Both the position numbers and the translations under genes were made by a program. From Planctomycetota bacterium (GTDB lineage: Bacteria > Planctomycetota > UBA1135 > UBA2386), in contig VGZG01000025.1 of assembly GCA_016872675.1 (NCBI GenBank), positions 1-43,139 of the forward strand: DNA of 43,139 nucleotides, read 5' to 3'. Under the pieces are notes generated by a model, which had not been told where the DNA came from, made no database searches, and saw nothing but the letters and a program-made list of their open reading frames with translations. This document shows positions 25,696-43,139 of the stretch, piece by piece (within the stretch, counting starts at the first letter, position 1; every line of letters begins with the position of its first letter).

Positions 25696-26538
25696 ATGAC
25701 GACGATCGCATTGCTCGGGACTGGCCTGCTCGGGTCGGCCATGGTCGAGAACCTGCTGCAGAAGGGCTGCGCCGTGCGCGTGTGGAACCGTACGCGCGAC
25801 AAACTGGCGCCCCTGGTGGCGAAGGGCGCCATCGCCACCGCCGACCCCGCCGACTGCGTCCGCGGCGCCGACCGCGCGCACCTCGTGCTGACCGACGACG
25901 CTGTCGTCGACGCGGTGCTGGCGCAGGCGCTGCCGGGCCTCGGCCGCAGCGTGCCAGTCTACGACCACAGCACCAACCTGCCGGCCAAGGTCGCCGCGCG
26001 CTTCGCCGCGCTGCGCGCGCAGGGCGTTCGCTACGTCTCGGCGCCGGCCTTCATGTCGCCGACCAACGCGCGCGAAGCGTCGGGCCTGCTGGTCTACGCC
26101 GCGCCGGCCGCCGAGCACGCGGGCATCGAGGCCGACCTCGCGCCGATGACCGGCAAGGTGTGGCACGCTGGCGAACGGCCCGATCTTGCCGCCGTGCACA
26201 AGCTCGCCGGCAACTCGGTGTTCTTCGCGCTCGCTTCCGCGATGGCCGACGTGCTGGCGATCGGCGCCGGCAGCGGCGTGCCGGCCGAGCAGATGCTCGC
26301 CTTCTACGACGTGTTCAAGCCGGGCATGGCGCTCGGCTACCTCGGCCACCGCGTCGCGCGGGGCGGCGCTGGTCGCGCCAGCTTCGAACTGCAGATGGCG
26401 CGCAAGGACGTGCGGCTGTGCCACGAGGCGGCCGGCAAGGAACCCTTGCTGGTGCTGCCCGCGGTGGCGGCGGCGATGGATCGCGCGCTGGCGCAGGGCC
26501 AGGCGCAGAACGACTACGCGGTGTTCACGCGCGCGTGA
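25696..26538 (+). CDS. NAD(P)-dependent beta-hydroxyacid dehydrogenase family protein
   Basis: The 280-residue protein belongs to the 3-hydroxyisobutyrate dehydrogenase-like family. It has the Rossmann GTGLLGSAM loop (Gly8, Gly10, Gly13) and WNRTRDK after the second strand, where Arg suggests NADP preference. 'VYDHSTNLPAK' takes the place of the usual DxST substrate loop, 'SAPAFMSPTNAREAS' the place of DAPVSGG, and Lys169 in HKLAGN is the catalytic lysine. An all-alpha C-terminal domain follows ('FELQMARKDVRLCHEAAGK'). The deviating 'PAFMSP' loop makes the substrate unpredictable: a small 3-hydroxy acid or an aldehyde (glyoxylate reductase-type) are options. The ATG at 25696 directly precedes the first beta strand. 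Confidence 0.85.
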   Translation: MTTIALLGTGLLGSAMVENLLQKGCAVRVWNRTRDKLAPLVAKGAIATADPADCVRGADRAHLVLTDDAVVDAVLAQALPGLGRSVPVYDHSTNLPAKVAARFAALRAQGVRYVSAPAFMSPTNAREASGLLVYAAPAAEHAGIEADLAPMTGKVWHAGERPDLAAVHKLAGNSVFFALASAMADVLAIGAGSGVPAEQMLAFYDVFKPGMALGYLGHRVARGGAGRASFELQMARKDVRLCHEAAGKEPLLVLPAVAAAMDRALAQGQAQNDYAVFTRA

Positions 26539-26854
26539 GCGATCGTCTGAGGTCGGCCTTCGGAAATCAGCCGACGGAATCTGCTTGCGGCGCCCCGCGC
26601 CGCGCCGCCGGGACCTCCCGCGCTCGCTTGCGCCCGGCCGTCCCGGCATCATCTCGCCGCTGCACATCCAGGGAGGCGGCGGGGCGGGGCGTGAATCGCG
26701 CAGCGCAGGCGGTCTCTCCTTCGCAATGACCGGACCGACGCGATCGGCCCACCGTCGCGATCGCCTGAGCGGGCACCGACGCGGACCCTGCGAACACGGC
26801 AACAGCAGGATGGCGCCTCGCCGCTCCGGCCGCCTAACCTCTCCGCCCCGCAAC
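26539..26854. other. Gene-free stretch before mfd
   Basis: About 315 bases. A 6-bp hairpin with a long loop lies just after the dehydrogenase stop (26552-26575). CCTAACCT at 26833-26840 is the likely mfd -10 region. Nothing else is recognisable. Confidence 0.4.
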
Positions 26855-29800
26855 GTGCCGCCCTCCCCCGCCCAACGCCTCGTCGACGCCTTCGCCGGCC
26901 TGCCGGTGACGCGCACGCTGTGCGAACAGGTCGCCCTGGGCAGCCAGCGCAAGGCCGGCGGGCTGTGGGGCGCTTCGGCCGGCCTGCTGGTCGCCGTGCT
27001 GCAGCAACGCCACAAGGGTGCTTCGCTGATCCTGACCGCCGACGACGTCGACAGCCTGCAGCTGCAGACCGATCTCGCGGCCTTCGGCGTGCCGTCGCAC
27101 GTGCTGCTGCGGCAGGAGCAGAGCGACGACGGCCAGCCCGATCCGACGACGCGCAGCGAGCGGCAGAAGGCGCTGCAGCGGCACGCCGCCGACAAGGCGC
27201 CGCTCTTGTGCGGCATCGAGGCCTTGCTGCAGCCGGTGGCGACGCCGAAGGCGCTAGCGCGCGCGCAGCTCGGGCTGCACGCCGGCCAGACGATCGACCG
27301 CGTGCAGGTGCTGCAGAAAGCGCAAGCTGCCGGCCTGCGGCAGGTGCCGCTGGTGCTCGCACCCGGCGAGTGCAGCGTGCGCGGCGACGTCGTCGACCTG
27401 TTCCCGATGGCGGCCGAGCAGGCCGTGCGCCTGGAGTTCTTCGACCGCACGCTGGAGTCAATCCGCACGTTCGACCCGAGCACGCAGCGCACGCTCGTCG
27501 TGCACGAGCGCTACGCGCTGGCGCTCGGCGGCAAGGACGCCGACGAGGATGGGGCGGTGCTGCGCCACTTGACGCCGTCGCGCACGCTGGTGCTCGCCTA
27601 CGAGCCGCTGCGCATCGAGGAGCGCATCGCGCGCCTCGCCGCGTTCGCGCCCGACCTGCGCGCCGCCGTGCAGGAGATCCAGGACACGCTACGGCCGTGC
27701 GCGCGCGTCGACATCAGCTCGCTGCCGAGCCACGACCTCGACTACAAGGTGCTCTCGGCCGGCAGCGCCGTCGGCTCCGGCGAGGCCGATCCCGCCGGCC
27801 GGCTGCGCAGCATCCGCGGCGTGCTGGGCCGCGTGCTGCTGTTCTGCCGCAGTGACGACGAACGCGACCGCTTGCAGGAGATCTTCGCGCACAAGGGCGT
27901 CGACCTCGCGGCCGAGAAGGTCGAGCTGCTGCCCGGCGCGATCAGTCGCGGCTTCCGCGTCCCCGACCTGCAGACAACGGCGCTGAGCAATGTCGAGTTC
28001 GCCGGCGTGCCGCAGCAGGCGCGCGTGCGCGAGCGGCAGGTGATGCCGAGCCGCGCCATCCAGAGCTTCTTCGAGCTCGGCCCCGGCGACCTCGTCGTGC
28101 ACGCGGTGCACGGCATCGCGCGCTTCGAGGGCACCGAGCTGGTGACGCGCGGCCAGGGCGCCGAGGAACACCTGCGGCTGTGCTTCCAGGACGAGGTCAA
28201 GCTGCTCGTGCCGGCGAGCAAGATCCACCTCGTCCAGAAGTACGTCGGTAGCGGCGGCAAGGCGCCGCTCGACAAGCTCGGCGGCAAGGGCTTCCAGAAG
28301 CGCAAGGAGCAGGTGCAGGAGGCCCTGTTCGACCTCGCCGCCGAACTGCTGGATGTGCAGAGCAAGCGCGCGCTGGTCAAGCGCCCGCCGTACCCGCAGG
28401 ACGCGCTCGAACGCGACTTCCTCGACGCCTTCGCCTTCCGCGACACACAGGACCAGGCGCGCGCGTGGACCGAGATCCAGGCCGACCTCGCCAAGGAATC
28501 GCCAATGGACCGGCTGCTGTGCGGCGACGTCGGCTTCGGCAAGACCGAGATTGCGTTGCGCACGGCCTTCCGCGTGGCGCTCAGCGGCCGACAGGTCGCC
28601 GTGCTGTGCCCGACGACGATTCTCGCCGAGCAGCACGCGCGCACGTTCGCGCGCCGCTGCGAGCCCTTCGGCCTGTCGGTCGAGATGCTGTCGCGCTACC
28701 GCACCGGCGCCGACCGGCGCGCGATCGAGGACAAGCTCGGCAGGGGCAACGTCGACATCGTCATCGGCACCCACCAGCTGCTCGGCAACGACGTCGCCTT
28801 CCACGACCTGGCGCTGGTCGTCGTCGACGAGGAGCAGCGCTTCGGCGTGCGGCAGAAGGAGCGGCTCAAGCAGTTGCGCGCCGAGGTCGACGTGCTGACG
28901 CTGTCGGCGACGCCGATCCCACGCACGCTGCACGGCTCGCTGCTCGGCATCCGCGGCATCAGCACGCTCGACAACCCGCCACCAGGCCGCCAGGAGGTCG
29001 AGACGCGCGTGCTGTTCCGCGACGACCGCGTGCTGCAGGACGCGATCGCGCGCGAGCTCGCGCGCCAGGGGCAGGTGTTCGTGCTGCACAACCGCATCAG
29101 CGAGCTGGAGCCGCTGGCGGTCCGCGTCCGTCAGCTGTGCCCCGGCGCGCGCGTCGCCATCGGCCACGGCCAGATGACCGAGGCCGAGATCGAGAAGACC
29201 GTGCGCGCGTTCGTGCGCGGCGACTTCGACGTGCTGGTCAGCACCACCATCGTCGAAAACGGGCTCGACATCGGTCGTGCCAACACCATCTTGATCGACA
29301 AGGCCGACCTCTTCGGCCTCGCCGAACTGCACCAACTGCGCGGCCGCGTCGGCCGCAGCAGCGAGAAAGCCTACTGCTACCTGCTGCTCGACCGCGACGA
29401 GCCGCCGGGCATGGAGGCGAAGGCCCGGCTGAAGGCGCTCGAGGAGTTCTCGCACCTGGGAGCTGGCTTCGCGATCGCGATGAAGGACCTGGAGATCCGC
29501 GGCGCTGGCAACCTGCTCGGCCCGCAGCAGTCCGGCCACATCGCCTCGGTCGGCTACGACATGTACTGCCAGCTGCTGCGCGCCGCCGTCGACACGGCGA
29601 AGACACAGCGGCCGAACGCGGCGCAGGTGGTCGAGGTCGACGTCGACCTGCGCGTGCAGGCGTTCCTGCCGCAGGACTTCCTCGCCGACCCGCGCCAGCG
29701 CCTCGAACTGCTGCGCGAGATGGACGAGGCGACCGACGACGACAAGCTGCGCGAGCTCGAGGCCGAGCTCAAGGACCGCTACGGCAAGCTGCCGACGCCA

Positions 29801-30169
29801 GTGCGCACGCTGCTGCGCGTGTTCCGCCTCAAGCACGGCCTGATGGCGCTCGGCGCGCACGGCGTGCAGTGGGTCGAGAACGACCGCGTCGTCGTCCGCC
29901 ACGCGCCGGGCGTGCCGCTCGGCGGCAGCTGGCTCGACTGCTGCCAGGACGTGCGCCCGGTCGAGGCCGGCAAGACCCACCTGATCCTGCCCAAGCAGCG
30001 CGGCGGCAAGGCCTGGGAGGCCGACGACGTGCTCGAGTTCCTGCTCGCCGCGGTCACCGGCCGCCTCGCCCCCGCCATCCGCGCGGCCAAGCCCCTGCCG
30101 ACCACCGCCCCGCCGCCGCGGCCGACGCGCCGGCCGACCAGCCGCAGCAAGCCGCTGCCGTGGGAGTAG
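26855..30169 (+). CDS. mfd: Transcription-repair coupling factor Mfd
   Basis: The 1104-residue protein frees stalled RNA polymerase from DNA lesions and recruits UvrA. The N-terminal UvrB-like, ATPase-dead module ('GASAGLLVAVLQQRHKGASL', 'GECSVRGDVVDLFP') is followed by the RNA-polymerase-interaction domain ('LGPGDLVVHAVHGIARFEG'). The RecG-like motor has Walker A GDVGFGKTE (Lys563), DEEQ (658-661), 'LSATPIPRTLHGSLLGIRG' and the translocation motif 'IGHGQM'. The C-terminal TRCF domain ('VDVDLRVQAFLPQDFLADP') is complete, then a basic Pro-rich tail. The GTG at 26855 gives the usual N-terminus; an in-frame ATG at 26810 would add 15 residues. TAACCT at 26835-26840 lies 14 bases before the GTG, suggesting a nearly leaderless mRNA. 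Confidence 0.97.
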   Translation: MPPSPAQRLVDAFAGLPVTRTLCEQVALGSQRKAGGLWGASAGLLVAVLQQRHKGASLILTADDVDSLQLQTDLAAFGVPSHVLLRQEQSDDGQPDPTTRSERQKALQRHAADKAPLLCGIEALLQPVATPKALARAQLGLHAGQTIDRVQVLQKAQAAGLRQVPLVLAPGECSVRGDVVDLFPMAAEQAVRLEFFDRTLESIRTFDPSTQRTLVVHERYALALGGKDADEDGAVLRHLTPSRTLVLAYEPLRIEERIARLAAFAPDLRAAVQEIQDTLRPCARVDISSLPSHDLDYKVLSAGSAVGSGEADPAGRLRSIRGVLGRVLLFCRSDDERDRLQEIFAHKGVDLAAEKVELLPGAISRGFRVPDLQTTALSNVEFAGVPQQARVRERQVMPSRAIQSFFELGPGDLVVHAVHGIARFEGTELVTRGQGAEEHLRLCFQDEVKLLVPASKIHLVQKYVGSGGKAPLDKLGGKGFQKRKEQVQEALFDLAAELLDVQSKRALVKRPPYPQDALERDFLDAFAFRDTQDQARAWTEIQADLAKESPMDRLLCGDVGFGKTEIALRTAFRVALSGRQVAVLCPTTILAEQHARTFARRCEPFGLSVEMLSRYRTGADRRAIEDKLGRGNVDIVIGTHQLLGNDVAFHDLALVVVDEEQRFGVRQKERLKQLRAEVDVLTLSATPIPRTLHGSLLGIRGISTLDNPPPGRQEVETRVLFRDDRVLQDAIARELARQGQVFVLHNRISELEPLAVRVRQLCPGARVAIGHGQMTEAEIEKTVRAFVRGDFDVLVSTTIVENGLDIGRANTILIDKADLFGLAELHQLRGRVGRSSEKAYCYLLLDRDEPPGMEAKARLKALEEFSHLGAGFAIAMKDLEIRGAGNLLGPQQSGHIASVGYDMYCQLLRAAVDTAKTQRPNAAQVVEVDVDLRVQAFLPQDFLADPRQRLELLREMDEATDDDKLRELEAELKDRYGKLPTPVRTLLRVFRLKHGLMALGAHGVQWVENDRVVVRHAPGVPLGGSWLDCCQDVRPVEAGKTHLILPKQRGGKAWEADDVLEFLLAAVTGRLAPAIRAAKPLPTTAPPPRPTRRPTSRSKPLPWE

Positions 30170-30476: not shown

Positions 30477-32213
30477 ATGCGGATTCCACGCTCGCCGTCC
30501 TTCCTTGGCGCGTCGTTGTGCGCCCTCGTCCTGCTGCTCGCAGCGCCCCACGGCCGCGCGCAGGAGCCGCCAGTCCCTACGCCTGTCCCCGCCGAGCGTC
30601 CGGCCGAGACGCCAGCAGGGGAAGCGCCGCAAGGTGAGCAGCCCCGCCGGCCGCGCCGCCAAGGCCGCCTGCCGCCGGGCTTCGCGCCGGTCGTCATCGA
30701 GGCCGGCTCCGTGCATCCGGTCACCGGCCCCGCGATCGAGAACGGCGTCGTCGTGATCCGTGGCGAGCGCATCGTCGCCGTCGGCAAGAAGGGCGAAATC
30801 GACGTGCCGCAGGGCGCGGTCGTGCGCAGCTTCCCGACCGGACACGTCTATCCCGGCCTGATCGACGCCGCGACCGACGCCTACACCGACCCATCGCTGC
30901 GCGGTGACGGCAGCAGCGACGGCGGCACGGCGTTCGTCGACGACCTGCGCAAACAGGACAGCCGCGTCCACGACCTCGCGGCCCAGGGCATCACTACGGC
31001 GTACGTCACGGTGCGCTCGCCGGCGTTCGTGCGCGGCCAGGGCGCGATCGTGCGGCCGAAAAAGGACGGCGGCTTCGAGCCGTGGTCCGGCAAGGACAAG
31101 GCGGCGCTACAGGTGCGCATGACCAACGGCCCCGGCAGGTCGCACGCGCTCGAGCGCCAGCAGCAACTGCAACAAGCCGACGGTTTGTTCGAAGGCCTCG
31201 ACGAGTATCGCAAGGCGCTGACCGACCACGAGGACGCGCTCAAGAAGTACGACAAGGAGTTCGCCGACTACCTCGCCTTCCACCAGAAGAAGAAGGACGG
31301 CGACAAGAAGCCCGAGGGCGACAAGCCAACCGGCAGCAACAAGCCGGCGGGCGACGGCAAGCCCGCGGACGCGCCCGCCGGCGCGGGCCAAGGCGGCGGC
31401 GGCAACGACCCGCCCAAGGATGAACCGCCGAAGAAGGACCCGCCGAAGCAACTCGACGGCGAACAGGCCGCCGCGTTCGAAGCGGCGCTGCTGACGCTGC
31501 TCGAAGCGATCGCGCAGGACCCCAAGCCCAAAGAGCCGCCGAAGCCGGACGCGCCAAAGCCGGACGGCCAACAGCCCGCCCCCGCCGGCGGCGCACCCGC
31601 GGCCGAGAAGAAGGACGAAGGCCCCAAGCGCCCGACCTACCCCAAGGCGCCGTCGAAGGAGCCCCAGCGCGACGCGCTGCTCAAGGTCCTCGACGGCGAA
31701 CTGCCGCTGCGCGTCGAGGCCCACCGCCCCGACGAACTGCGCGCGGCGCTCGCGCTGCAGCAGGCGCGCAAGGTGCCGGTGCTCGTGCTGGAGCAGGCCT
31801 ACGGCGCCGCCGCGCTCGCCGACGAGATCGCCAAGGCCGGCGCGGCGGTGGTCCTGACCGAGTGCCTGCCGATCCCGTTCGAGCCGCCGTACGACCGCTT
31901 CGACGCCACCAAGCTGCCGGCGAGGCTCGCTGCTGCCGGCGTGCCGTTCGCGATCGCGACCGGCCGCGCCTCGTGGTCGTCGCTGCTGCCGCTGCAGGCC
32001 GCGGCTGCCGTCGGCGGCGGCCTCGCGCCGGCGGAAGCGCTGCGCGCGATCACGCTGACGCCCGCCGAGATCCTCGGCGTCGCCAAGGACGCCGGCTCGC
32101 TGCAGCCGGGCAAGTACGCCGACGTGCTGGTCACCGACCGGCCGCTGTTCTTGACCGATAGCCGGGTGCTGCTCGTGCTGGGCAAGGGCAACGCCGAATA
32201 CGAGGTGAAGTGA
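30477..32213 (+). CDS. Secreted amidohydrolase-fold pseudoenzyme A, with low-complexity insertion
   Basis: The 578-residue protein has a signal peptide ending GRAQ (about residue 28) and a Pro/Glu-rich spacer. The N-terminal amidohydrolase beta-sandwich follows ('IENGVVVIRGERIVAVGKKG'). At the position of the metal-binding HxH the text is PGLIDAATDAYTD, so both histidines are absent. Around residues 241-262 comes a helix (DEYRKALTDHEDALKKYDKE), then a Lys/Pro/Asp/Gly-rich low-complexity linker to about residue 395. The barrel then resumes ('DGELPLRVEAHRPDELRAAL'; one His kept) and closes with the family C-terminus 'GSLQPGKYADVLV'. Metal-dependent hydrolysis is unlikely. It is the first gene of the operon; its stop overlaps the next start as TGATG. 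Confidence 0.8.
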   Translation: MRIPRSPSFLGASLCALVLLLAAPHGRAQEPPVPTPVPAERPAETPAGEAPQGEQPRRPRRQGRLPPGFAPVVIEAGSVHPVTGPAIENGVVVIRGERIVAVGKKGEIDVPQGAVVRSFPTGHVYPGLIDAATDAYTDPSLRGDGSSDGGTAFVDDLRKQDSRVHDLAAQGITTAYVTVRSPAFVRGQGAIVRPKKDGGFEPWSGKDKAALQVRMTNGPGRSHALERQQQLQQADGLFEGLDEYRKALTDHEDALKKYDKEFADYLAFHQKKKDGDKKPEGDKPTGSNKPAGDGKPADAPAGAGQGGGGNDPPKDEPPKKDPPKQLDGEQAAAFEAALLTLLEAIAQDPKPKEPPKPDAPKPDGQQPAPAGGAPAAEKKDEGPKRPTYPKAPSKEPQRDALLKVLDGELPLRVEAHRPDELRAALALQQARKVPVLVLEQAYGAAALADEIAKAGAAVVLTECLPIPFEPPYDRFDATKLPARLAAAGVPFAIATGRASWSSLLPLQAAAAVGGGLAPAEALRAITLTPAEILGVAKDAGSLQPGKYADVLVTDRPLFLTDSRVLLVLGKGNAEYEVK

Positions 32214-33376
32214 TGTTGCGCTGCACGCTGCTGCCGACCGCTCTCGTCGGGCTCGCCGCGACGCTGTCCGCGCAGGACCTGCTGGTCCGCGCCAAGACGG
32301 TCGTCATCGCCCCCGACGCCGTGCTCGCCGACGGCCGTTTCCTCGTGCGCGCCGGCAAGGTCGCGTACGTCGGCCAGGACGTGCCCGCCGACGCCGCCGC
32401 GAAGGCGACCGCGATCGACTGCGGCGACGCCCTGGTCGTGCCCGGCTTCGTGCTGCCGCCGACGACGCTGGGCCGCGACCGCGACCTCGCCGAGGCGGCG
32501 CTGCCGTTCACGCCGGACCTGCGCGCTGTCGAGGCCTTCGATCCGTGGCACGAAGAGCTCGCCAAGCTGCCGCACGGCGGCTTCACCTCGGCGATCCTGT
32601 CGCCGTCGCCGCGCAATATCGCCGGCGGCCTCGGCGCGCTGGTCAAGCCGGGCGCTGGCGGCGGCAGCGTCGCCGCGCCGGATCTGCACCTCGCGCTGTC
32701 GCTGAATGCCGCGGCCCGCAACCCCGAGCGGCCGCCGACCTCGCTGATGGGCGCCGTCGACCTGCTGCGCAGCGCCTTCGCGCAGGCAAAGTCGTCGGCC
32801 GCCGCCGGCCCGGACGTCGCCGTGCTGCGCAGCGCGCTGCAGGGCAACCGCAAGATCGCCATCGCCGCCGACACGCTGAGCGAGATCCAGCAGGCGCTCG
32901 ACCTCGCGCGCGACTTCGGCTTCGACGCGGTGATCGTCGGCGCCCGCGACGCTGACAAGGCGCTCGACCGCCTCGTCGCCCAGCGCGCCGCGGTGGTCAT
33001 CGGCGGCCTCGCGCCGGAGATGCGACTCGCCCAACTGCAGTTCCCCGCCCGCCTCGCCGAGGCCGGCGTGCCGTTCTGCTTCACCGGTCGGCCCGATCAG
33101 GCCCGACTGTCGGCCGCGCTCGCGGTGCGCCACGGCCTCGACCGCAAGTCGGCGTGGGCCGCGCTCAGCCGCGCGCCAGCGCAGATGTTCGGCGTCGCCG
33201 GCCAGGTCGGCGCGCTGCGCCAAGGCTGCGCCGCCGACTTCGCCGTCTGGAGCGGCGACCCGCTCGACCTCGGCTCGGCCCTGCGCGCCGTCTACGTCGA
33301 CGGCGCGCGCGTTCATGGCGAACTGCCATCGGCCGCCGCCAACCCCGCTTCGTCCCCCGCCGCCGGAGTCCGCTGA
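32213..33376 (+). CDS. Secreted amidohydrolase-fold pseudoenzyme B
   Basis: The 387-residue protein has a signal peptide (MLRCTLLPTALVGLAATLSA). The fold is recognisable from 'GRFLVRAGKVAYVGQDV', from 'SPSPRNIAGGLGALVKPG' (the family's PGxxxxxGGxGxxxK block) and from the C-terminal 'GALRQGCAADFAVWSGDPL'. The HxH site reads VVPGFVLPPTTLGRD, with no histidine; the second and third ligand sites read 'KIAIAADTLSEIQQAL' and 'AVIVGARDADKALD', also without His. It is therefore predicted to be catalytically inactive. There is no insertion: it is the smallest member. The ATG at 32213 overlaps the upstream stop (TGATG) behind GAGG; a GTG one codon earlier is equally possible. Confidence 0.78.
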   Translation: MLRCTLLPTALVGLAATLSAQDLLVRAKTVVIAPDAVLADGRFLVRAGKVAYVGQDVPADAAAKATAIDCGDALVVPGFVLPPTTLGRDRDLAEAALPFTPDLRAVEAFDPWHEELAKLPHGGFTSAILSPSPRNIAGGLGALVKPGAGGGSVAAPDLHLALSLNAAARNPERPPTSLMGAVDLLRSAFAQAKSSAAAGPDVAVLRSALQGNRKIAIAADTLSEIQQALDLARDFGFDAVIVGARDADKALDRLVAQRAAVVIGGLAPEMRLAQLQFPARLAEAGVPFCFTGRPDQARLSAALAVRHGLDRKSAWAALSRAPAQMFGVAGQVGALRQGCAADFAVWSGDPLDLGSALRAVYVDGARVHGELPSAAANPASSPAAGVR

Positions 33377-34605
33377 TGATCCGTTCGCTTCCCCTCGGCG
33401 CCATCGCGCTCGCGCTCGCCGCGCTGCTGCCAGCACAGGACGGCGTCACTGTCTATCGCAACGCCCGCATCCTGCCAGGCGGCGCGCCCGCCATCGACAA
33501 CGGCGTGCTCGTCGTCGGCGGCGGCAAGATCCTCGCCATTGGCGGCGCCGACACAAAGGCGCCGAACGGCGCCGCAGTCGTCGACTGCGCCGGCAAGACC
33601 ATCACGCCGGGCCTGATCGACGCGTCGTTCCGCGCCGGCAATACGCCGGACATGAACGAGAACGGCGACGAGGTCACGCCGCACCTGCGCGTGCTCGACA
33701 GCCTCGAACCCGCGGACCCGTCGTTCGTGCGCGCGCGCAGCGCCGGCGTCACCGCCGTGCACGTCATGCCCGGCGCGCGCAGTGTCATCGGCGGCCTCGG
33801 CGTCGTGCTCAAGACGCACGCCAAGGACCCGCAGGCGATGGTCGTCAAGCACGATGCGAGCCTGCGCATCGTCATGGGCGCCGAGCCGTCGATGGGCAAC
33901 CGCGCGATCCGCGGCGGCAGCGTCGACTCGATCTACTACCGCCGCCCGACGACGCGCATGGGCGTGGTGTGGGCCGCGCGCAAGGCCTTCTACGACGCCA
34001 AGGAAGCGCTCGAGAAGTCGGCCGACGCGCCACCGGCGACGCCGAGCCCCGGCGTCGAGGTGCTGACGCGCGTGCTGCGCGGTCAGGTGACCGCGGTCAC
34101 CACCGCGCGCTCCGAGCAGGACCTGCGCACCGCCCTGCGGCTCGCCGCCGAGTTCGGCTACCGCACGGTGCTCGATGACGCGCAGGACGCGCACATGCTG
34201 GTCGACGAGCTGAAGGCGGCGCAGACCACCGTGATGCTCGGCGCGCCGAGCGCGACCGCGATCGCCGGCAGCGCTGGCGCCGACGGCGCCGACCCGCGCA
34301 GCGTGACCGCCCGCCTGCTCGCCGACGCCGGCGTGCCGTTCGTCATCACGACCGGCAGCAACGCCGCGTCGCTCGACCTCGTGCGCGAGGCGATGTTCGC
34401 CGCGCGCAACGGCATCTCCTCCGCCCGGGCGCTCGACGCGGTGACGATCGAGCCCGCCAGGCTCCTGGGCATCGACCAACGGACCGGCAGCCTGCAGAAG
34501 GGCAAGGACGCCGACTTCGTGGTCTGGTCCACCGATCCCCTCGACCCGGCCGCTGCGGCCGAGTCGGTCTTTGTCGACGGCATCGCCGTGCAGGTCCTCC
34601 GATGA
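33376..34605 (+). CDS. Secreted amidohydrolase-fold pseudoenzyme C
   Basis: The 409-residue protein has a signal peptide (MIRSLPLGAIALALAALLPA). 'IDNGVLVVGGGKILAIGGAD' and 'GSLQKGKDADFVVWSTDPL' are the two halves of the family's beta-sandwich. HxH is replaced (ITPGLIDASFRAGNTPD). The block 'GVTAVHVMPGARSVIGGLG' and 'RRPTTRMGVVWAARKAFYD' follow the pattern of the planctomycete amidohydrolase subgroup more closely than A or B, but the later His ligands read 'VTAVTTARSEQDLRTAL' and 'RTVLDDAQDAHMLVDEL'. It is predicted inactive. The start lies within CGGAGTCCGCTGATG (33364-33378), a coupled stop-start junction that recurs before gene E. The stop overlaps the next ATG as ATGA. Confidence 0.8.
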   Translation: MIRSLPLGAIALALAALLPAQDGVTVYRNARILPGGAPAIDNGVLVVGGGKILAIGGADTKAPNGAAVVDCAGKTITPGLIDASFRAGNTPDMNENGDEVTPHLRVLDSLEPADPSFVRARSAGVTAVHVMPGARSVIGGLGVVLKTHAKDPQAMVVKHDASLRIVMGAEPSMGNRAIRGGSVDSIYYRRPTTRMGVVWAARKAFYDAKEALEKSADAPPATPSPGVEVLTRVLRGQVTAVTTARSEQDLRTALRLAAEFGYRTVLDDAQDAHMLVDELKAAQTTVMLGAPSATAIAGSAGADGADPRSVTARLLADAGVPFVITTGSNAASLDLVREAMFAARNGISSARALDAVTIEPARLLGIDQRTGSLQKGKDADFVVWSTDPLDPAAAAESVFVDGIAVQVLR

Positions 34606-36023
34606 ACGCCATGTCGCTCTCCGCTCCGTTGCTCCGCAGCATCCTCCGTTGCGCCGTCGCCGCCGCGATCGCGGCATCGCCCGTGTTCGCCCAGGACCTG
34701 CTCGCCGTCAAGGCGGGCCGCATCCTGACCGTGAGCGGCCCCGTGGTCGAAGACGGCGTCGTGCTGATCCAGAACGGCCGCATCACCAAGATCGGCAAGC
34801 AGGCCGAGGTCGAGATCCCGTGGGCCGCGAAGGTCATCGACGCGACCGGCAAGACCGTCATGCCGACGTGGGTCGTCGCCCACTCGCAGGGCGGCATGCG
34901 CAACTTCAACGAGAACATGCAGAACGTGCCGTGGCTGACGGTCGGCGACGCCGTCGACCCCGCCTCGCCGTACTTCGAGGACTGCCTGCGCAACGGCGTC
35001 GGCGCGATCCACGTGATGCCCGGCAACCAGACGCTGCTCGCCGGCCAGGGCATGGTCGTCCGGCCGTTCGGTCGCACGGTCGAGGACATGACGATCGCCG
35101 CCAACACCGGCATCAAGATGTCGCTCGCCGCCGGCGGCAGCGGCCGCCTGCAGCAGATCCGCAAGCTGCGTCGCGCCATCGCCGACGTGCGCGAGTACCT
35201 CGCCGACTTCGACCGCCGCAAGGCCGAGTTCGACAAGGAGAAGGCGGCGGGCGCGATCCCGGCCGACAAGAAGTGGACCGAGGAGGTCGACCGCACCAAG
35301 AAGGGCGCCGTCGACCTTGTGCAGAAGAAGGCGAAGGGCTGGCTGTACGTGCCGAGCTTCGCCGAACTGGACGAGGCGCTGCGGCTGGCACAGGACCTCG
35401 ACCTGCAGGTCGTGCTCGGCAACAACATCGACGAGGGCGTCGGCCTCGTGAAGAAGCTCGGCAAGCCGGTCGTGCTCGACGACGCCATCGAGTACTTCGA
35501 GACCGACGAGGAGACGCAGAAGGAGAAGCGTTTCTGCAGCGCCAAGCTGCTCGCCGACGCCGGCGTGCCGTTCGCGCTGACGCTCGGCCAGGGCGGCCCG
35601 ACGGCCTACCCGTGGTGGCAGCTCGGCACGTGCGTCCGCCACGGCATCGCGCGCGACAAGGCGATCGAGGCGCTGACGATGGTCCCGGCGCAGCTGATCG
35701 GCATGGGCGACCAGCTCGGCTCGCTCAGCGAGGGCAAGCTCGGCAACCTGCAGATCTTGACCGGCGACCCGCTGCAGGCGACGTCGTGGGTCGAGACCGT
35801 CGTGCTCGAGGGCCAGGTGGTCTACGAGCGCAGCAAGGACCCGCGGCTGCAGTACCTGTTCGAGGCCGAGAAGGCCAAGGCCAGCAAGGCCGCCGGCCCG
35901 GAGAAGAAGGAGACCGAGAAGAAGGACGGCGCCGAGCCCGCCAAGGCCGAACCGGCGAAGGCCGAGGGCGGCAAGCAGGACGCGCCCAAGTCCGGCAACG
36001 GCAACGGCCGCGGAGTCCGCTGA
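34602..36023 (+). CDS. Secreted amidohydrolase-fold pseudoenzyme D
   Basis: The 473-residue protein has a signal peptide ending ASPVFAQ (about residue 31). The N-terminal sandwich is clear ('VEDGVVLIQNGRITKIGKQ'). At the HxH position the text is VMPTWVVAHSQGGMRN: one His next to the site but no HxH. The loop carrying the insertion in relatives is here a charged helical segment (about 197-245, 'REYLADFDRRKAEFDKEKAA'). The later sites read 'WLYVPSFAELDEALRLA' and 'QVVLGNNIDEGVGLV'. The C-terminus has 'GSLSEGKLGNLQILTGDPL' and a Lys/Glu/Ala/Pro-rich tail of about 45 residues. It is predicted inactive. The ATG at 34602 overlaps the upstream stop; the TGATG at its end starts gene E. Confidence 0.8.
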   Translation: MNAMSLSAPLLRSILRCAVAAAIAASPVFAQDLLAVKAGRILTVSGPVVEDGVVLIQNGRITKIGKQAEVEIPWAAKVIDATGKTVMPTWVVAHSQGGMRNFNENMQNVPWLTVGDAVDPASPYFEDCLRNGVGAIHVMPGNQTLLAGQGMVVRPFGRTVEDMTIAANTGIKMSLAAGGSGRLQQIRKLRRAIADVREYLADFDRRKAEFDKEKAAGAIPADKKWTEEVDRTKKGAVDLVQKKAKGWLYVPSFAELDEALRLAQDLDLQVVLGNNIDEGVGLVKKLGKPVVLDDAIEYFETDEETQKEKRFCSAKLLADAGVPFALTLGQGGPTAYPWWQLGTCVRHGIARDKAIEALTMVPAQLIGMGDQLGSLSEGKLGNLQILTGDPLQATSWVETVVLEGQVVYERSKDPRLQYLFEAEKAKASKAAGPEKKETEKKDGAEPAKAEPAKAEGGKQDAPKSGNGNGRGVR

Positions 36024-38845
36024 TGCGCGCCGCCGCCTTCGTCCGCCTGCTGCTCGCCGCCGCGGCGTTCGCCGCCGCGGCGCCAGCGCAGGATCCCGCC
36101 GTCCCGTCGCGCACGTTCGCCGTGCGCTGCGGCACGCTGTTGCTCGGCGACGGCAAGGCGCCGCTGCGCGACGCGTGGCTCGTCGTCGTCGACGGCAAGG
36201 TGCGCAGCGTCGGCATGGACGCGCCGCCGGCCGGCACGCCGGTCGTCGACGCGTCGGGCCGCGTGGTGATGCCCGGCATCGTCGCGGCCGACAGCGACCT
36301 CGCCAACGCCGCCGACTCCGAGTACCAGTTCGCGCCGGACGCGCTCGCCGTCGACCAGTTCGACTTCGAGCGCAGCCAGCTCGCCGCGCTGCAGGGCGGC
36401 GTGACCACCGCCTACCTGTCGCCGGGCCGCGCGCGGCTCGTCGGCGGCCAGGGCGCCGTCGTCAAGCTCGCCGGCAGCGACCTCGTCGCGCGCGTGCTCG
36501 ACGACTCGGCCGCGCTGCGCGTCAACTTCGCCGAGGCCGCGCTCAACGCGCCGCGCGTGTTCGAGCCGACGCCGCACCCGACCGACGAGGATCCGTTGGA
36601 GGCCGCGCGCATCCAGACGCCGACCGCGCGCATCAGCGTGCTCGCCGAACTGCGCGCCGCGTTCGCCGCGGCGACCGACAAGGACCTGCGCGCCGGCGGC
36701 GAAGGCCCGGCCGAGCACCGCTTCGACGAACGGCCGCTCGCCGACGTCATCAAGGGCGCGCTGCCGCTGCGCGCCGGCGCCTTCCTCGCCAACGACATCC
36801 GCCGCGCGCTGTTGTTCCAGCAGGAACTCGGCGTGCGCATGGTGCTCGAGGACCCGCAGGAGATCGCCGAGGTGATCGACCTCGCCGCGGCACAGAAGGT
36901 CGCGGCGACGTTCCGCGTGCCGGTGCGCTTCGGCCGCGCCAATCCCGGCGGCGAGGACCGCCTCGACAAGTCGCCGGAGCCGCGCGCCGACGCCGCCGCC
37001 AAGGCCGCGGCCAAGGGCCTGCTGGTCGGGCTCGCGCCGGCCCCCGGCGTGCCGCTGCGCGACTACCTGATGGCGGTCGCCGTCGCCGTGCGCCACGGCC
37101 TGCCCGCCGCCACCGCGCTGCGCGCCGTCGGCGCCGATGCCGCGGCGATCCTCGGCGTCGACGGCCGCGTCGGCACGCTGCAGCCCGGCAAGGACGCCGA
37201 CTTCATCGTGCTGAGCGGCGATCCGCTCGCGGTCGGCACGCTGGTCGAGCAGACCTGGGTCGACGGCGAGCGCGCGTACGCGCGCAAGGCGTCGTCGACG
37301 GCGCTGGCGATCCGCGCCGGCCTGATCCACGACGGCGTCGGCCGCTCGTTCCGCAACGGCGTCGTGCTGATGCAGGACGGCCGCGTCAAGGCGGTCGGCG
37401 AGGACCTCGCGATCCCGTACGGCGCGCAGGTCGTCGACCTGCCGACCGCGGTGGTCACGCCGGGCCTGATCGACGCGTTCTCGCACCTCGGCCTCGCCGG
37501 CGAAGGCATGTTCGTGCCGCCCGGCGCGCCCAACCAGCGCGTGCACGACGCGATCGCGCACGACGACCCGATGTTCGCGCCGGCGCTGCGCGAGGGCATC
37601 ACCACGGTGCTCGTCGCCGGCAAGGACGGCGGCCCGGTCAGCGGCCGGCTCGCGGCGGTGAAGACCGGCGCCGCCGACCACGCGTCGATGACGGTGCGGC
37701 CGATCGCCGGCCTGCGCATGAGCCACGACGCCATCGGCCCCGACGCGATCCGCGGCTTCGCCGAGCAACTCAACCGCGGCAAGCAGTACGTCGAAGCCTG
37801 GAAGAAGCACGAGAAGGACCTCGCCGACTGGCAGGCCGGCAAGAAGGCCGAGAGCCAGCCCGCGCCGGCGCCGGCGCCGACCGAGGACAAGCCCGAGGCC
37901 GCGCCGGTCGATCCGGTGAGCGGCGTCTGGGAGGGCGACCTCGACGTGCAGGGCCAGATCCAACTGAAGTTCACGCTCGACCTGAAGCTCGACGGCACGA
38001 AGGTCGACGGCACCATCAAGATCAGCTTCGCCGGCCGTGAAGTGCCGGCGCAGCCGATCGCCGGCGGCTCGTTCGAGGGCGGCAAGCTCAAGATCGAGTT
38101 CCGCGGCATGGGTGGCTCGGCGACGCTCGAAGGCACGATCAAGGACGACGTGCTGACGTCGAAGATCACGCTCGGTCGCATGGGCGACCAGGACCTGATC
38201 GCGCGCCGCATCAGCAAGTCGTCGGGCGCGCCGGCGCCGCGTCGCGCGAGCGCCAGCAAGCCCGACGAGGACGGCAAGCCCAAGGCCCCGAAGGTCGACG
38301 AAGGCCTCGAACCGATGCGCGCCGCGATCGAGAAGAAGGCGGCGCTGGTCGTGCGCTGCAACCGCGGCGCCGCCATCGGCGACGTCGTCGAACTGCTGGA
38401 GAAGGAAGGCATCCCCTACGTGCTGACCGGCGTCGAGGACCTGTACGACGACGCCGCGCCGCTGAAGGGCCGCAAGCCCGCCGTGCTCGTCGGCCCGGAG
38501 ACGGTGTTCGAGGACAAGGGCGAGCTGAAGAACGTCGCGTCGATGCTGGCCGACATGGACCTGCCGGTGCTGTTCGGCAGCGGCGAGTGCAAGAACGCCA
38601 AGCTGCTGCCGCTGCACGCCGCCTACTCGGTGCGCTACGGCCTCAGCCCGGCCGACGCGCTCGCCGGCATGTCGTCGGCGACCGCGCGCGCGTTCCGCCT
38701 CGACGACCGCGTCGGCTCGCTGCAGAAGGGCAAGGACGCCGACCTCGTGGCGTTCTCGGGCAATCCGTTCGAGCCGCAGAGCCGCGTGCTCGTCGTCGTG
38801 TGCAACGGGCGGATCGTCGTCGACCGCCGGGAGGAGAAGCAGTGA
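36023..38845 (+). CDS. Secreted double amidohydrolase-fold pseudoenzyme E with inserted beta domain
   Basis: The 940-residue protein has a signal peptide (to about residue 23) and two complete amidohydrolase-like units. Unit 1 (about 24-425) ends with 'GTLQPGKDADFIVLSGDPL'; its HxH site reads VMPGIVAADSDLAN. Unit 2 (about 426-940) starts 'FRNGVVLMQDGRVKAVGED' and ends 'GSLQKGKDADLVAFSGNPF'; its site reads VTPGLIDAFSHLGLAG, with only the second His kept. Unit 2 is interrupted by a charged helix, a Pro/Ala linker and a beta-rich domain (about 631-733, 'GVWEGDLDVQGQIQLKFTLD' to 'LTSKITLGRMGDQDLIARR') that resembles a small lipocalin-like barrel. No full metal site is present in either unit. Translation is coupled to D (CGGAGTCCGCTGATG) and to F (GTGA). 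Confidence 0.8.
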   Translation: MRAAAFVRLLLAAAAFAAAAPAQDPAVPSRTFAVRCGTLLLGDGKAPLRDAWLVVVDGKVRSVGMDAPPAGTPVVDASGRVVMPGIVAADSDLANAADSEYQFAPDALAVDQFDFERSQLAALQGGVTTAYLSPGRARLVGGQGAVVKLAGSDLVARVLDDSAALRVNFAEAALNAPRVFEPTPHPTDEDPLEAARIQTPTARISVLAELRAAFAAATDKDLRAGGEGPAEHRFDERPLADVIKGALPLRAGAFLANDIRRALLFQQELGVRMVLEDPQEIAEVIDLAAAQKVAATFRVPVRFGRANPGGEDRLDKSPEPRADAAAKAAAKGLLVGLAPAPGVPLRDYLMAVAVAVRHGLPAATALRAVGADAAAILGVDGRVGTLQPGKDADFIVLSGDPLAVGTLVEQTWVDGERAYARKASSTALAIRAGLIHDGVGRSFRNGVVLMQDGRVKAVGEDLAIPYGAQVVDLPTAVVTPGLIDAFSHLGLAGEGMFVPPGAPNQRVHDAIAHDDPMFAPALREGITTVLVAGKDGGPVSGRLAAVKTGAADHASMTVRPIAGLRMSHDAIGPDAIRGFAEQLNRGKQYVEAWKKHEKDLADWQAGKKAESQPAPAPAPTEDKPEAAPVDPVSGVWEGDLDVQGQIQLKFTLDLKLDGTKVDGTIKISFAGREVPAQPIAGGSFEGGKLKIEFRGMGGSATLEGTIKDDVLTSKITLGRMGDQDLIARRISKSSGAPAPRRASASKPDEDGKPKAPKVDEGLEPMRAAIEKKAALVVRCNRGAAIGDVVELLEKEGIPYVLTGVEDLYDDAAPLKGRKPAVLVGPETVFEDKGELKNVASMLADMDLPVLFGSGECKNAKLLPLHAAYSVRYGLSPADALAGMSSATARAFRLDDRVGSLQKGKDADLVAFSGNPFEPQSRVLVVVCNGRIVVDRREEKQ

Positions 38846-40251
38846 ACGCCCCGTTCCGCCTCGTCGCCGCCGCAGCGCTCGCGGCCACCCTCGCCGCCCA
38901 GGACGGCGCGCCGGCCGCCGCGGCGCCCACGCAAGCTCCGCAGTCCGGCCCCAACCTGCCGGCGAAGCCGTTCGAGCTGTGGCGGCCGCGCCGTCCCAAG
39001 GAGGAGAAGGACTACCAGGTGGCGAAGTGGGGTCCGCGCGGCCTGCCGAGCCCCGGCTACGCCTTCCGCGCCGCCAAGGTGCTGCCGATCACCGCGGCGC
39101 CGATCGTCGACGGCGTCGTGCTGACGAAGAACGGCCTCATCGAGGCCGTCGGCACGGCGAAGGACGTCGCGATCCCCGCCGGCTACGAGGTCGTCGACTG
39201 CGGCGACGCCGTGATCGTGCCGGGCTTCATCGAGATGCACTGCCACATCGCGTCGGAGAGCTTCGACCTCAACGACACGGTGCACCCGACGAACCCCGAG
39301 TTCCGCACGCTCGACCTGATCAGCATGGAGCACGACCAGATCCGCGTCGGGCGCGCGGGCGGGATCAGCACCGCGCTGTACATCCCGGGCTCGGGCTCCA
39401 ACATGGGCGGCTTCGGCACGCTGACCAAGACGTGGGCGAAGTCGCCGGAGGAGGCGCTCGTGCGCTTCCCGGGCAGCCTCAAGATCGCGCAGGCCGGCAA
39501 CCCCGAGCGCGGCAGCGGCGACCTCGGCACCGACATGATGGGCATGAGCGAGGGCATCCGCATGACCCTGCTCGACGGCAAGCGCTACTGGGAGCAGCAC
39601 GAGGCCTGGCAGGCGGGCAAGGGCGCGAAGCCGAAGTTCGACCCGACGCTCGAACTGCTGCGCGGCCTGTTCCGCCACGAGTACCTCGTGTCGGTGCACA
39701 CGCAGATCTACCAGGTCGTGCTGCAGACGCTGCAGATGCTGCGCCACGAGATGGGCCTGTGGACCGTCGTCGTGCACGGCGAGTTCGACGCCTACCGGCT
39801 GTCGGGCAACGCCTACGAGTCGGGCATGGCGGTCGCCGCCGGCCCGCGCAACTACCACTTCGACCGCGCGACGTCGCAGTTCCTCGGCCTGATGCAGACC
39901 TGGCACGACGGCGGCAAGTACTACGCCTGGCGCGACCCGGTGCTCGGCCTCGGCCGCGACGGCGTCGGCGTCAACACCGACTCGCCGGTCGTGCCGCAGG
40001 AACAGCTGACGGTGCAGGCCGCCATCGGCGTGCGCCTCGGCCTGCCGCACGAGGTCGCGCTGCGCGCGCTGACGATCAACAACGCGCGCTTCGCCGGCAT
40101 CGACCACCGCGTCGGCTCGCTGACCGTCGGCAAGGACGCCGACCTCGGCGTCTGGAGCGGCGACCCGATCGACCCGCGCAGCGCCGTGCAGGTCATGGTG
40201 ATCAACGGCCAGATCTGCTACCGCCGCGATCCGTCGCGGCCGGTCTGGTGA
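38842..40251 (+). CDS. Secreted metal-dependent amidohydrolase F (metal ligands intact)
   Basis: The 469-residue protein has a signal peptide (VNAPFRLVAAAALAATLAAQ). It retains all ligands of a mononuclear amidohydrolase: HxH as His133 and His135 in GFIEMHCHIAS, His286 in LVSVHTQIY, His312 in TVVVHGEFD and Asp380 in VGVNTDSPVV. The subgroup blocks 'LYIPGSGSNMGGFGTLTKT' and 'AGNPERGSGDLGTDMMGM' are present, and the C-terminus has 'GSLTVGKDADLGVWSGDPI'. The ligand set is like that of imidazolonepropionase-type enzymes, but the substrate is unknown. It is probably periplasmic or extracellular. The GTG at 38842 overlaps the stop of E (GTGA) behind a good GGGAGGAG Shine-Dalgarno sequence. Paralogue G follows after 15 bases. 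Confidence 0.88.
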   Translation: MNAPFRLVAAAALAATLAAQDGAPAAAAPTQAPQSGPNLPAKPFELWRPRRPKEEKDYQVAKWGPRGLPSPGYAFRAAKVLPITAAPIVDGVVLTKNGLIEAVGTAKDVAIPAGYEVVDCGDAVIVPGFIEMHCHIASESFDLNDTVHPTNPEFRTLDLISMEHDQIRVGRAGGISTALYIPGSGSNMGGFGTLTKTWAKSPEEALVRFPGSLKIAQAGNPERGSGDLGTDMMGMSEGIRMTLLDGKRYWEQHEAWQAGKGAKPKFDPTLELLRGLFRHEYLVSVHTQIYQVVLQTLQMLRHEMGLWTVVVHGEFDAYRLSGNAYESGMAVAAGPRNYHFDRATSQFLGLMQTWHDGGKYYAWRDPVLGLGRDGVGVNTDSPVVPQEQLTVQAAIGVRLGLPHEVALRALTINNARFAGIDHRVGSLTVGKDADLGVWSGDPIDPRSAVQVMVINGQICYRRDPSRPVW

Positions 40252-40266
40252 CCGCGAGCCGCTGAC

Positions 40267-41478
40267 GTGACCTCCCCCGCCGCCATCGCCTGCGCGCTGC
40301 TCGCGTTCGCCGCCGCCGCCTCGGCGCAGGCGACCGCGCACCTCGCCGCGCGCATCGTCCCGGTCGACGCGGCGCCGATCGACGGCGGCGTGCTCGTCGA
40401 GGACGGCGGCCGCATCGTCGCGCTCGGCGCGAAGAAGGACGTGGCGATCCCGACGGGCGCGAACGTCGTCGACCACGGCGAGGCGTGGCTGTGCCCCGGC
40501 TTCGTCGACCTGCACCACCACGTCAGCGGCGGCGGCGGCGACATCAACGACATGGTGCTGCCGCTCAACGCCGAGCTGCGCACGCTCGATGTCGTCAAGC
40601 CGAGCGAGGAGGCCGTGCGGCGCACCGCCGCGGGCGGCGTGACGACGACGCTGTTCATCCCGGGCTCGGGCACCAACATCAGCGGCTTCGGCGTGCTGCT
40701 CAAGATGCGCTGGGGCGGCTCGCTCGACGCGATGGTGCTGCGCCAGCCGGGCGCGATGAAGGTGGCGCAGGGCTTCAACCCCGAGCGCGGCAGCGGCGAC
40801 CTCGGCGCCACGCGCATGGGCAGCAAGGAGCTGCTGATGCGCCAGCTGGAGCGCGGCCAGGCCTACGAGGCGGCGTGGCGCGCGCACCGCGACGGCAAGG
40901 GCGCCAAGCCGAGGTTCGAGCCCGAGCTCGAACAGCTGCGCCAGGTCTTCGCCCGCGAAGTGCCGGTGCTGATCCACACCGCCGGCCTGCGCGACTGCAT
41001 CGCCACCGCGCGCATGTTCCAGGACGTCTTCCCCGTGCAGATGGTGCTGTCGCACGGCTGCTTCGACGGCTGGCTCGCCGCCGAGTCGCTCGCGCGCCGC
41101 AAGACGCCCCTCAACCTCGGGCCGCGCATGTTCCAGTTCGATCCGTACGGCCGCATGCAGGGCATGTGCCAGGCCTACTGGGACGCCGGCTGCACCGACA
41201 TGAGCATCAACACCGACGCGCCGGTCGTCGCCGCCGAGGAGTTCCAGCTCCAGGGCGCGATGGCGGCGCGGCTCGGGCTGCCGTGGAACGCCGCATTGAT
41301 GGCGCTGACGCTCGCCCCCGCCCGCCAGATCGGCGTCGCGGATCGCGTCGGCTCGCTGACGGTCGGCAAGGACGCCGACTTCCAGGTCGTCGACGGCGAC
41401 CCGCTCGACCCGCGCCATGCGCCGCGCGCGGTCTACATCGAAGGAACCTTGGTCCACCGACTCGGAGACGTGCGATGA
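40267..41478 (+). CDS. Secreted metal-dependent amidohydrolase G (metal ligands intact)
   Basis: The 403-residue protein has a signal peptide (VTSPAAIACALLAFAAAASAQ). Ligands: His83 and His85 in GFVDLHHHVSGG, His237 in VLIHTAGLRD, His263 in VLSHGCFDGWL and Asp317 in SINTDAPVV. It is the closest relative of F in the window: 'FIPGSGTNISGFGVLLKM' and 'GFNPERGSGDLGATRMGS' match F almost block by block, so F and G are probably a duplicated pair or two subunits of one enzyme. Substrate unknown; cyclic amides or small peptides are typical for the superfamily. The GTG at 40267 lacks a good Shine-Dalgarno sequence, and coupling to F over 15 bases is likely. The stop overlaps the next ATG (ATGA). Confidence 0.88.
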   Translation: MTSPAAIACALLAFAAAASAQATAHLAARIVPVDAAPIDGGVLVEDGGRIVALGAKKDVAIPTGANVVDHGEAWLCPGFVDLHHHVSGGGGDINDMVLPLNAELRTLDVVKPSEEAVRRTAAGGVTTTLFIPGSGTNISGFGVLLKMRWGGSLDAMVLRQPGAMKVAQGFNPERGSGDLGATRMGSKELLMRQLERGQAYEAAWRAHRDGKGAKPRFEPELEQLRQVFAREVPVLIHTAGLRDCIATARMFQDVFPVQMVLSHGCFDGWLAAESLARRKTPLNLGPRMFQFDPYGRMQGMCQAYWDAGCTDMSINTDAPVVAAEEFQLQGAMAARLGLPWNAALMALTLAPARQIGVADRVGSLTVGKDADFQVVDGDPLDPRHAPRAVYIEGTLVHRLGDVR

Positions 41479-42953
41479 CCCCAGTTCGAACCGCCCTCTC
41501 GGCCCTGTTGGCGCTCGCCGCCGCGACCGCCTGCCTCGCGCAGGACGCGCGGCCGATCGCGTTCACCAACGCGCGGCTCCTGCCCGTCTCCGGCCCCGCC
41601 ATCGAGCGCGGCACGCTGGTGATCCGCAACGGCAAGATCGAAACCATCGGCGCCGACGCTGTCGTGCCGCCGGGCGCGCGCGTCGTCGACTGCGCCGGCA
41701 AGACCGTGATGCCGGGCCTGGTCAGCGCGTGGTCGCGCGCCGGCCTCGCCGGCCAGAGCCAGCCGCGTGGCGACGCGCCGATGGGCGGCAGGCGCGGCGG
41801 CATGGAGCTCCCGATGCCGATGGGCGGCGGCGGCACGCAGAACAAGCCGGCGACCAAGGTCGTCGACGGCCTCTACGCCAAGCAGCCGGTGTTCGGCGAA
41901 CTGCTGCGCGCCGGCGTCACGTCGCTGGCGCTCAATCCCAACGGCAGCGGCTTCCCCGGCCTCGGCGCGGTGCTGCGTCCGGACGGCAAGACCGTCGAGC
42001 AGTTGACCGTCGACGACGACGCGTTCGTGCAGGTCGGCATGGTGCGCGACAGCGGCACCAAGAAGCTGCTGAAGGAGCAGTTCGAGAAGGCGCAGAAGGT
42101 CGTCGACGAGCGCAAGAAGCCGCCAGCGCCGCCGACCCCGCCGCCCCAGCCGCAGCAACCGCCGGCGGAAGCCAAGCCGGGCGAAGCCAAGCAAGAACCG
42201 CCGAAGGGCAACGAACCGCCGAAGCCGGGCCCGAACCCGACCCCCACTCCCACGCCGCCGCCGACGCCGAATCCCACGCCCACCCCGCCGCCGACCCCCA
42301 CTCCCACGCCGCCGACGCCGGCACCTGCGCCGCAGGGCCAGCCAGCGCCGCAGCAACCGCCGCAGCAGGCCCCGAAGGCGCCGCCGAAGGATCCCAACCT
42401 CGAGGTGCTCGCCGACCTGCTCGAAGGCAAGCGCCGCGCCATCGTGCAGATCGACTCGGCCGCCGACCTGCTGCACTGGCAGGACGCCGTCGGCGACAAG
42501 CTGACGTTCCCGCGCGCCGTCGCGGTCGCGCGCCACGATCCGACGTCAGGCACCCTCGACGTCGTGCTCGAGCAGGTCAAGGCGTGGAAGTGCCCGGTGC
42601 TGCTGCCGCCGGACCTGACGACGCTGCCGCGCTCGCGCTACCTCGTGCACCCCGCGCTGCAGTTCCACGACGCCGGCGTCGAGGTCGCGTTCGCCATCGG
42701 CGAGAGCGGCCAAGCCGTGCGCCAACTGTTCTTCAACCTGATGCAGGTCTGCCGCTACGGCTTGCCGCAGGACGTCGCGCTCAAGGGCGTCACGTTGCTG
42801 CCGGCGAAGATCCTCGGCATCGACAAGACGACCGGCTCGCTCGACGTCGGCAAGGACGCGAACCTGCTGGTGTTCACCGGCGACCCGATGTCGCCCGCCG
42901 GTGAACTGCACTCCGTCTGGCTGCGCGGCGTCGAGACCAAGAAGGAGCCGTGA
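41475..42953 (+). CDS. Secreted amidohydrolase-fold pseudoenzyme H with Pro-rich insertion
   Basis: The 492-residue protein has a signal peptide ending TACLAQ (about residue 23). 'IERGTLVIRNGKIETIGAD' and 'GSLDVGKDANLLVFTGDPM' frame the fold. The HxH position reads VMPGLVSAWSRAGLAGQ, without histidine. At about residues 195-213 a charged helix (KKLLKEQFEKAQKVVDERKK) is followed by a Pro/Thr/Gln-rich linker to about residue 307, including PTPTPTPP-type repeats. The barrel resumes with 'EGKRRAIVQIDSAADLLHW'. The layout matches pseudoenzyme A. It is predicted inactive. The ATG at 41475 overlaps the upstream stop. The repetitive DNA of the linker (42115-42395) could vary in length between strains. 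Confidence 0.78.
   Translation: MTPVRTALSALLALAAATACLAQDARPIAFTNARLLPVSGPAIERGTLVIRNGKIETIGADAVVPPGARVVDCAGKTVMPGLVSAWSRAGLAGQSQPRGDAPMGGRRGGMELPMPMGGGGTQNKPATKVVDGLYAKQPVFGELLRAGVTSLALNPNGSGFPGLGAVLRPDGKTVEQLTVDDDAFVQVGMVRDSGTKKLLKEQFEKAQKVVDERKKPPAPPTPPPQPQQPPAEAKPGEAKQEPPKGNEPPKPGPNPTPTPTPPPTPNPTPTPPPTPTPTPPTPAPAPQGQPAPQQPPQQAPKAPPKDPNLEVLADLLEGKRRAIVQIDSAADLLHWQDAVGDKLTFPRAVAVARHDPTSGTLDVVLEQVKAWKCPVLLPPDLTTLPRSRYLVHPALQFHDAGVEVAFAIGESGQAVRQLFFNLMQVCRYGLPQDVALKGVTLLPAKILGIDKTTGSLDVGKDANLLVFTGDPMSPAGELHSVWLRGVETKKEP
42115..42395 (+). repeat. Imperfect Pro/Thr codon repeat inside gene H
   Basis: Short CCG/ACG/CCC units repeat imperfectly and encode the Pro/Thr/Gln-rich linker of the H protein. 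The densest part, about 42235-42320, encodes NPTPTPTPP twice. It looks like a low-complexity tract prone to slippage. Confidence 0.6.
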
Positions 42954-42955
42954 CC

Positions 42956-43139
42956 ATGGCCACGCCGACGAACCAACCCCACCGCACCATGCGTCCGCAC
43001 ATCCTGATCGGCGGCGCGCTCGCGCTGCTCGCCGCCTGCGACCTTCCCGCCCAGGGCCGCGGCCGCCGCGGCCAGCGCCCCGACGGCGCGCCGCCAGCCG
43101 CCGCGCCGAGCGAGGCCGCGCCGACCGCAAAGACCGACG
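42956..43139 (+). CDS. N-terminus of a further exported protein (cut by the window edge)
   Basis: Sixty-one codons are visible. After a short polar start comes a hydrophobic signal segment (MRPHILIGGALALLAACDLPAQ), then a Gly/Arg-rich and Pro/Ala-rich spacer (GRGRRGQRPDGAPPAAAPSE) like the one after the signal peptide of gene A. It begins 2 bases after gene H's stop and is thus part of the same operon. A ninth amidohydrolase-family gene is plausible, but no fold is visible in the window. LAAC could be a lipobox (LAA|C), making it a lipoprotein. Starts at 42956 or at the internal ATG at 42989 are both possible. Confidence 0.6.
   Translation, partial: MATPTNQPHRTMRPHILIGGALALLAACDLPAQGRGRRGQRPDGAPPAAAPSEAAPTAKTD

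Follow-up and report, generated by a model that had tools for sequence, protein, structure and literature searches.

Pseudoenzymes have mostly been studied singly. Within the amidohydrolase superfamily, the principle that a dead copy can serve as a partner subunit is already known: in Pseudomonas aeruginosa, an inactive pseudo-dihydroorotase chain is required for ATCase activity within a dodecamer (PMC7053772), and the CRMP or dihydropyrimidinase-related proteins have the amidohydrolase fold, lack dihydropyrimidinase activity and prefer to form heterotetramers (PMC4051505). Here we describe an operon found in many families of Planctomycetota that, across the phylum, contains eight dead amidohydrolase domains together with one to four paralogues that have kept the metal site, all in a fixed order. 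It offers, within a single operon, a direct way to test why dead copies are retained.

The window, by which we mean the whole 43,139-nucleotide stretch that was analysed, is contig C25 of a high-GC genome of 3.58 Mb that is 95% complete. A contig scan with gene F alone, which reaches close relatives only, named mostly Planctomycetota MAGs, and a search of a plasmid collection returned distant matches only. Positions 30477 to 42953 of the forward strand hold eight ORFs, A to H, that encode nine amidohydrolase domains (E is counted twice), and the operon extends past the window, as a tenth domain gene, I, follows H and is cut at the contig end:

30477..32213, + strand, gene A: predicted exported dead domain, DAATD in place of HxH; long Lys/Pro-rich insert; no metal ligand kept
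32210..33376, + strand, gene B: predicted exported dead amidohydrolase domain, LPPTT
33376..34605, + strand, gene C: predicted exported dead domain, DASFR; >=80% conservation in 71 columns
34602..36023, + strand, gene D: predicted exported dead domain, AHSQG; first His and Lys kept, other four ligands lost
36023..38845, + strand, gene E: two fused dead domains, E1 at aa 1-426 (AADSD) and E2 at aa 427-940 (DAFSH)
37922..38215, + strand, beta insert of E2: eight-stranded beta domain, aa 634-731, from the secondary structure of the model
38842..40251, + strand, gene F: predicted exported, active-type; H133, H135, K214, H286, H312, D380
40267..41478, + strand, gene G: predicted exported, active-type; H86, H88, K168, H240, H266, D320
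41475..42953, + strand, gene H: predicted exported dead domain, SAWSR; Pro-rich insert
42956..43139, + strand, 5′ end of gene I: tenth domain, dead; begins at 42956 or 42989 and is truncated where the contig ends

A preliminary description of this DNA had pointed to eight consecutive, mostly overlapping genes, and that is the arrangement we find: adjacent genes overlap by 1-4 bases, the exception being F and G, which lie 15 bases apart. All eight proteins match PF01979/PF07969, E twice; A and C-H score above the Pfam threshold for PF01979, and B falls slightly under both cut-offs (28.9 vs 29.7 and 22.3 vs 25). Full-length identity among most of the domains is only 24-42%. When the N-termini are read by eye, all eight proteins appear to carry an N-terminal Sec signal peptide whose last residues are AQ, and gene I and the relatives also carry an apparent signal peptide. 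An LAAC motif in the window's gene I raised the possibility of a lipoprotein anchor, which we dropped because the motif is not conserved in relatives. Directly upstream of the operon lies a gene for transcription-repair coupling factor (26186-30169), and further upstream one for an FG-GAP repeat protein (23772-25643).

An alignment of the nine domains bears out the central claim of the preliminary description, that the metal site has been lost from seven of them. The ligand set of a binuclear site (HxH, Lys, His, His, Asp) is complete within the window only in F and G, where HxH reads HCH and HHH, respectively, and the carboxylatable Lys on beta-4 (K214 in F) is also kept, making six of six ligands. 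In the other seven domains HxH is replaced by exactly the motifs that had been quoted, with loss of the later His, His and Asp as well. Because gene I is likewise dead in all relatives (none of 20 full-length orthologues has any metal ligand), eight of the ten operon domains are dead. The split recurs in 21 operons of the order, and thus is not due to chance: all six ligands are present in 40 of 41 F/G domains, the exception being a frame-split gene, and in none of 167 other domains, which keep at most four and in 105 cases none. The other Planctomycetota families show the same split, and every operon read across its F-G region has at least one six-ligand domain. All six ligands of F are invariant in 25 sequences. 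Conservation at the ligand positions lies at the 97th percentile in F/G and at the 32nd-66th in the dead groups. F and G are therefore probably active as enzymes, although the substrate class can only be guessed, from the type of metal site, to be a small amide or dipeptide.

AlphaFold2 predicts two amidohydrolase folds plus the eight-stranded beta insert for E (pLDDT 82.4, pTM 0.54, so that the relative placement of E1 and E2 is uncertain) and a single one for F (pLDDT 82.7, pTM 0.84). Both models show a TIM barrel with a small composite beta domain, and for both the best match in the PDB is the Thermotoga maritima amidohydrolase 3ooq (TM 0.83 by target length in each case); by profile, F matches 3ooq with an E-value of 1.8e-76. 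The beta insert of E2 has no Pfam match; it is present in the alignment of 21 orthologues and absent from E2 in several other families. Together, the E model and the orthologue alignments indicate that the dead domains keep the fold while their former ligand positions drift.

The operon is ancient and phylum-wide in Planctomycetota. The arrangement A-B-C-D-E1E2-F(-F2)(-G)-H-I is shared by 20 relatives of the order (17-20 kb read in each) and by 14 other families, even as orthologue identity drops from about 90% to 25-35%; conservation of gene order in related genomes had been suggested as a check, and scattered genes or pseudogenes there, the outcome that would have counted against the idea, are not what we see. 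This recurrence also led us to reject an assembly artefact. An E profile picked up the E fusion in every one of the 63 genomes sampled from the order; at an E-value below 1e-110 it added 51 genomes belonging to 22 other families, for a total of 114 of 392 by hand count. Loci from 14 of those families, a few of them cut by contig ends, again gave the order A-B-C-D-E1E2-F-H-I. G is absent in families f6 and f7, F2 or G2 copies are found in some other families, and in f73 the active domain of the operon is of type G. The genes flanking the operon vary from family to family, which argues that the block is a unit. We considered a conserved additional partner gene and rejected it, as no such gene recurs from family to family; just downstream of gene I on the same strand, L040-L051 carry a gene of ~137 aa that looks NTF2-like by eye, restricted to families f1 and f6.

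The dead paralogues are old lineages. In a tree of 160 domains (built by a quick method without a mixture model, and with long branches flagged), each of the groups C, D, E1, E2, H and I is set apart from all other domains by one branch (SH-aLRT 98-100), A and B each come close to such a separation, and F is intermixed with F2. Since the paralogue groups separate in this way, the metal site was most likely lost before the families arose. The F2 duplicates are not a single clade, and F has therefore probably undergone more than one duplication. Pairwise dN/dS was estimated by the Nei-Gojobori method, whose values are rough at >70% GC. Against a relative of the same genus, the dead genes gave 0.21-0.44 and F and G gave 0.37-0.46; against two other relatives the ranges were 0.42-0.61 and 0.37-0.44, respectively. 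The dead genes are thus under purifying selection comparable to that on F and G. The earlier impression that these genes are maintained rather than decaying is borne out by gene order, open frames and dN/dS. That they are tandem duplicates in decay, as the loss of catalytic residues might suggest, has a negligible chance of being right: frames are open in nearly all relatives, the clades are ancient, and conservation already contradicts it.

That active domains are accompanied by dead ones is a repeated theme, found also outside this operon. On another contig of the window's genome (C35; L060 8810-11460), an active paralogue (HSH, His, His, TDD) adjoins a dead one; this pair recurs in relatives and becomes a single chain of 870-930 aa in families f62 and f82. 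A third type of locus encodes a dead-active-dead chain of 1493 aa (L132 8635-13113 and L072 5630-10108), which at L068 6197-10653 is split into proteins of 628 and 865 aa. Active and dead domains share one chain at L133, L141, L132 and L072, in two paralogous locus types. In the operon itself, A and B are fused into one protein in families f80 and f22 (L131 14393-17614 and L136 12997-15864). The fusions of active with dead domains are our best indirect evidence of physical contact.

We think it fairly probable that the products of the operon are subunits of a single exported hetero-oligomeric amidohydrolase, with the dead domains as non-catalytic subunits. We favour this reading because the dead domains constantly co-occur with at least one active domain in overlapping genes, and because of the A-B and E1-E2 fusions and the active-dead fusions at paralogous loci. 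It is further supported by the drift of the former ligand positions in a retained fold, the comparable dN/dS of dead and active genes, the gene order common to the 20 relatives and 14 other families, the separation of six paralogue groups in the tree, and the behaviour of the block as a unit amid differing neighbours. In the periplasm, F, with G or F2 where present, would hydrolyse a small substrate resembling an amide or a peptide. The eight dead paralogues would have lost their metal site before the families of Planctomycetota separated and would now be non-catalytic, filling positions in the assembly and holding or regulating the active subunit; they may also shape access to it. In this they would be much like the inactive beta subunits of the proteasome. 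The domains themselves, the pattern of kept and lost ligands, the ancient paralogy, the conserved gene order and the constraint are direct observations; from them we infer that the products assemble with one another, that F and G are catalytically active, that the dead subunits are required for activity and what kind of substrate is hydrolysed.

Several other readings share part of this evidence. Gene order alone fits separate, co-regulated exported proteins as well as one complex, and an expanded family whose dead members do unrelated jobs without contact would sit well with the low identity among the operon domains. We nevertheless regard this as unlikely, since both the set and its order stay constant across families at 25-35% orthologue identity, and active-dead fusions are seen repeatedly. 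Another reading, and to our minds a rather unlikely one, is that each dead domain is an exported binding protein that holds a small molecule of its own in the old TIM-barrel pocket, with F and G processing the ligands. In its favour, A has a Glu at the position of the beta-5 His in 18 of 21 orthologues, D keeps a His and the Lys in most orthologues with an aromatic residue at beta-5, and 65-76 columns are strongly conserved in each of C, D and I despite the lost site. Yet the former ligand positions of B, E1, E2, H and I carry different residues even from one orthologue to the next, and comparison of neighbourhoods across families revealed no transporter or receptor gene regularly adjoining the operon.

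The conserved columns of C, D and I include Arg, Glu, Asp and Trp, and could also be taken to mean that the dead domains are still enzymes, but of a different type that uses a new metal site or needs no metal. We consider this very unlikely: alternative metal ligands, named beforehand as the finding that would undo the idea of dead domains, did not turn up in a search at the level of sequence, which gave no conserved His/Cys cluster in any dead group, and a His is conserved at >=80% in just two of them, one each (H94 in D and H334 in H). The preliminary description had left the choice open between a complex or scaffold and ligand binding; the former is what co-occurrence, overlaps and fusions favour, and the latter loses ground for most paralogues, whose pockets are not conserved, with A and D as the exceptions. 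In these two, the conserved residues of the old pocket would not be needed for a purely structural role and argue against one.

Annotation by family profile calls nearly all of these proteins simply amidohydrolases, and no paper found in the open-access literature describes an operon of tandem or dead amidohydrolases. The earlier statement that no such system has been described therefore stands for the operon in the literature searched and not for the principle of a dead partner. Similar dead/active tandem amidohydrolases may occur in Bacteroidota. The closest solved relative of F is 3ooq, a COG1228-type protein that also provides the fold match for a domain of E; its sequence has the full set of HxH, Lys, His, His and Asp found in F. 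It differs in being a single complete protein whose function is uncharacterised (a literature search found no paper on it). Among the next best structural matches, from the same superfamily, are the Xaa-Pro dipeptidase and L-Lys, L-Arg carboxypeptidase Cc2672 group (3mtw, 3mkv, 3n2c), at only ~15-20% identity; we know of no dead companions for these enzymes. The operon proteins do not belong to the pseudo-dihydroorotase/CRMP family proper: their best matches are 3ooq and COG1228-type enzymes, with those to CRMPs far weaker (E-values of about 1e-5 to 1e-2). Should the products assemble into a single complex, a widespread bacterial phylum would possess a large exported enzyme assembly that is still uncharacterised. 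The boldest version, possible but doubtful, is a secreted heteromeric machine of nine or ten domains, common to families of Planctomycetota, in which a single fold has been duplicated about ten times and eight specialised dead subunits form an ordered shell around the catalytic one or ones. It would be a periplasmic counterpart of the proteasome ring. The beta ring of the 20S proteasome is heteromeric, with some paralogous subunits lacking catalysis; fold and function are unrelated, and the likeness is an analogy only. The P. aeruginosa complex is cytoplasmic and has one dead chain, whose partner, ATCase, is not an amidohydrolase, and the CRMPs are eukaryotic and cytosolic, come from no operon and act in neuronal development. 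Both are precedents for the role proposed for the dead subunits of the Planctomycetota operon, which would build or regulate the enzyme.
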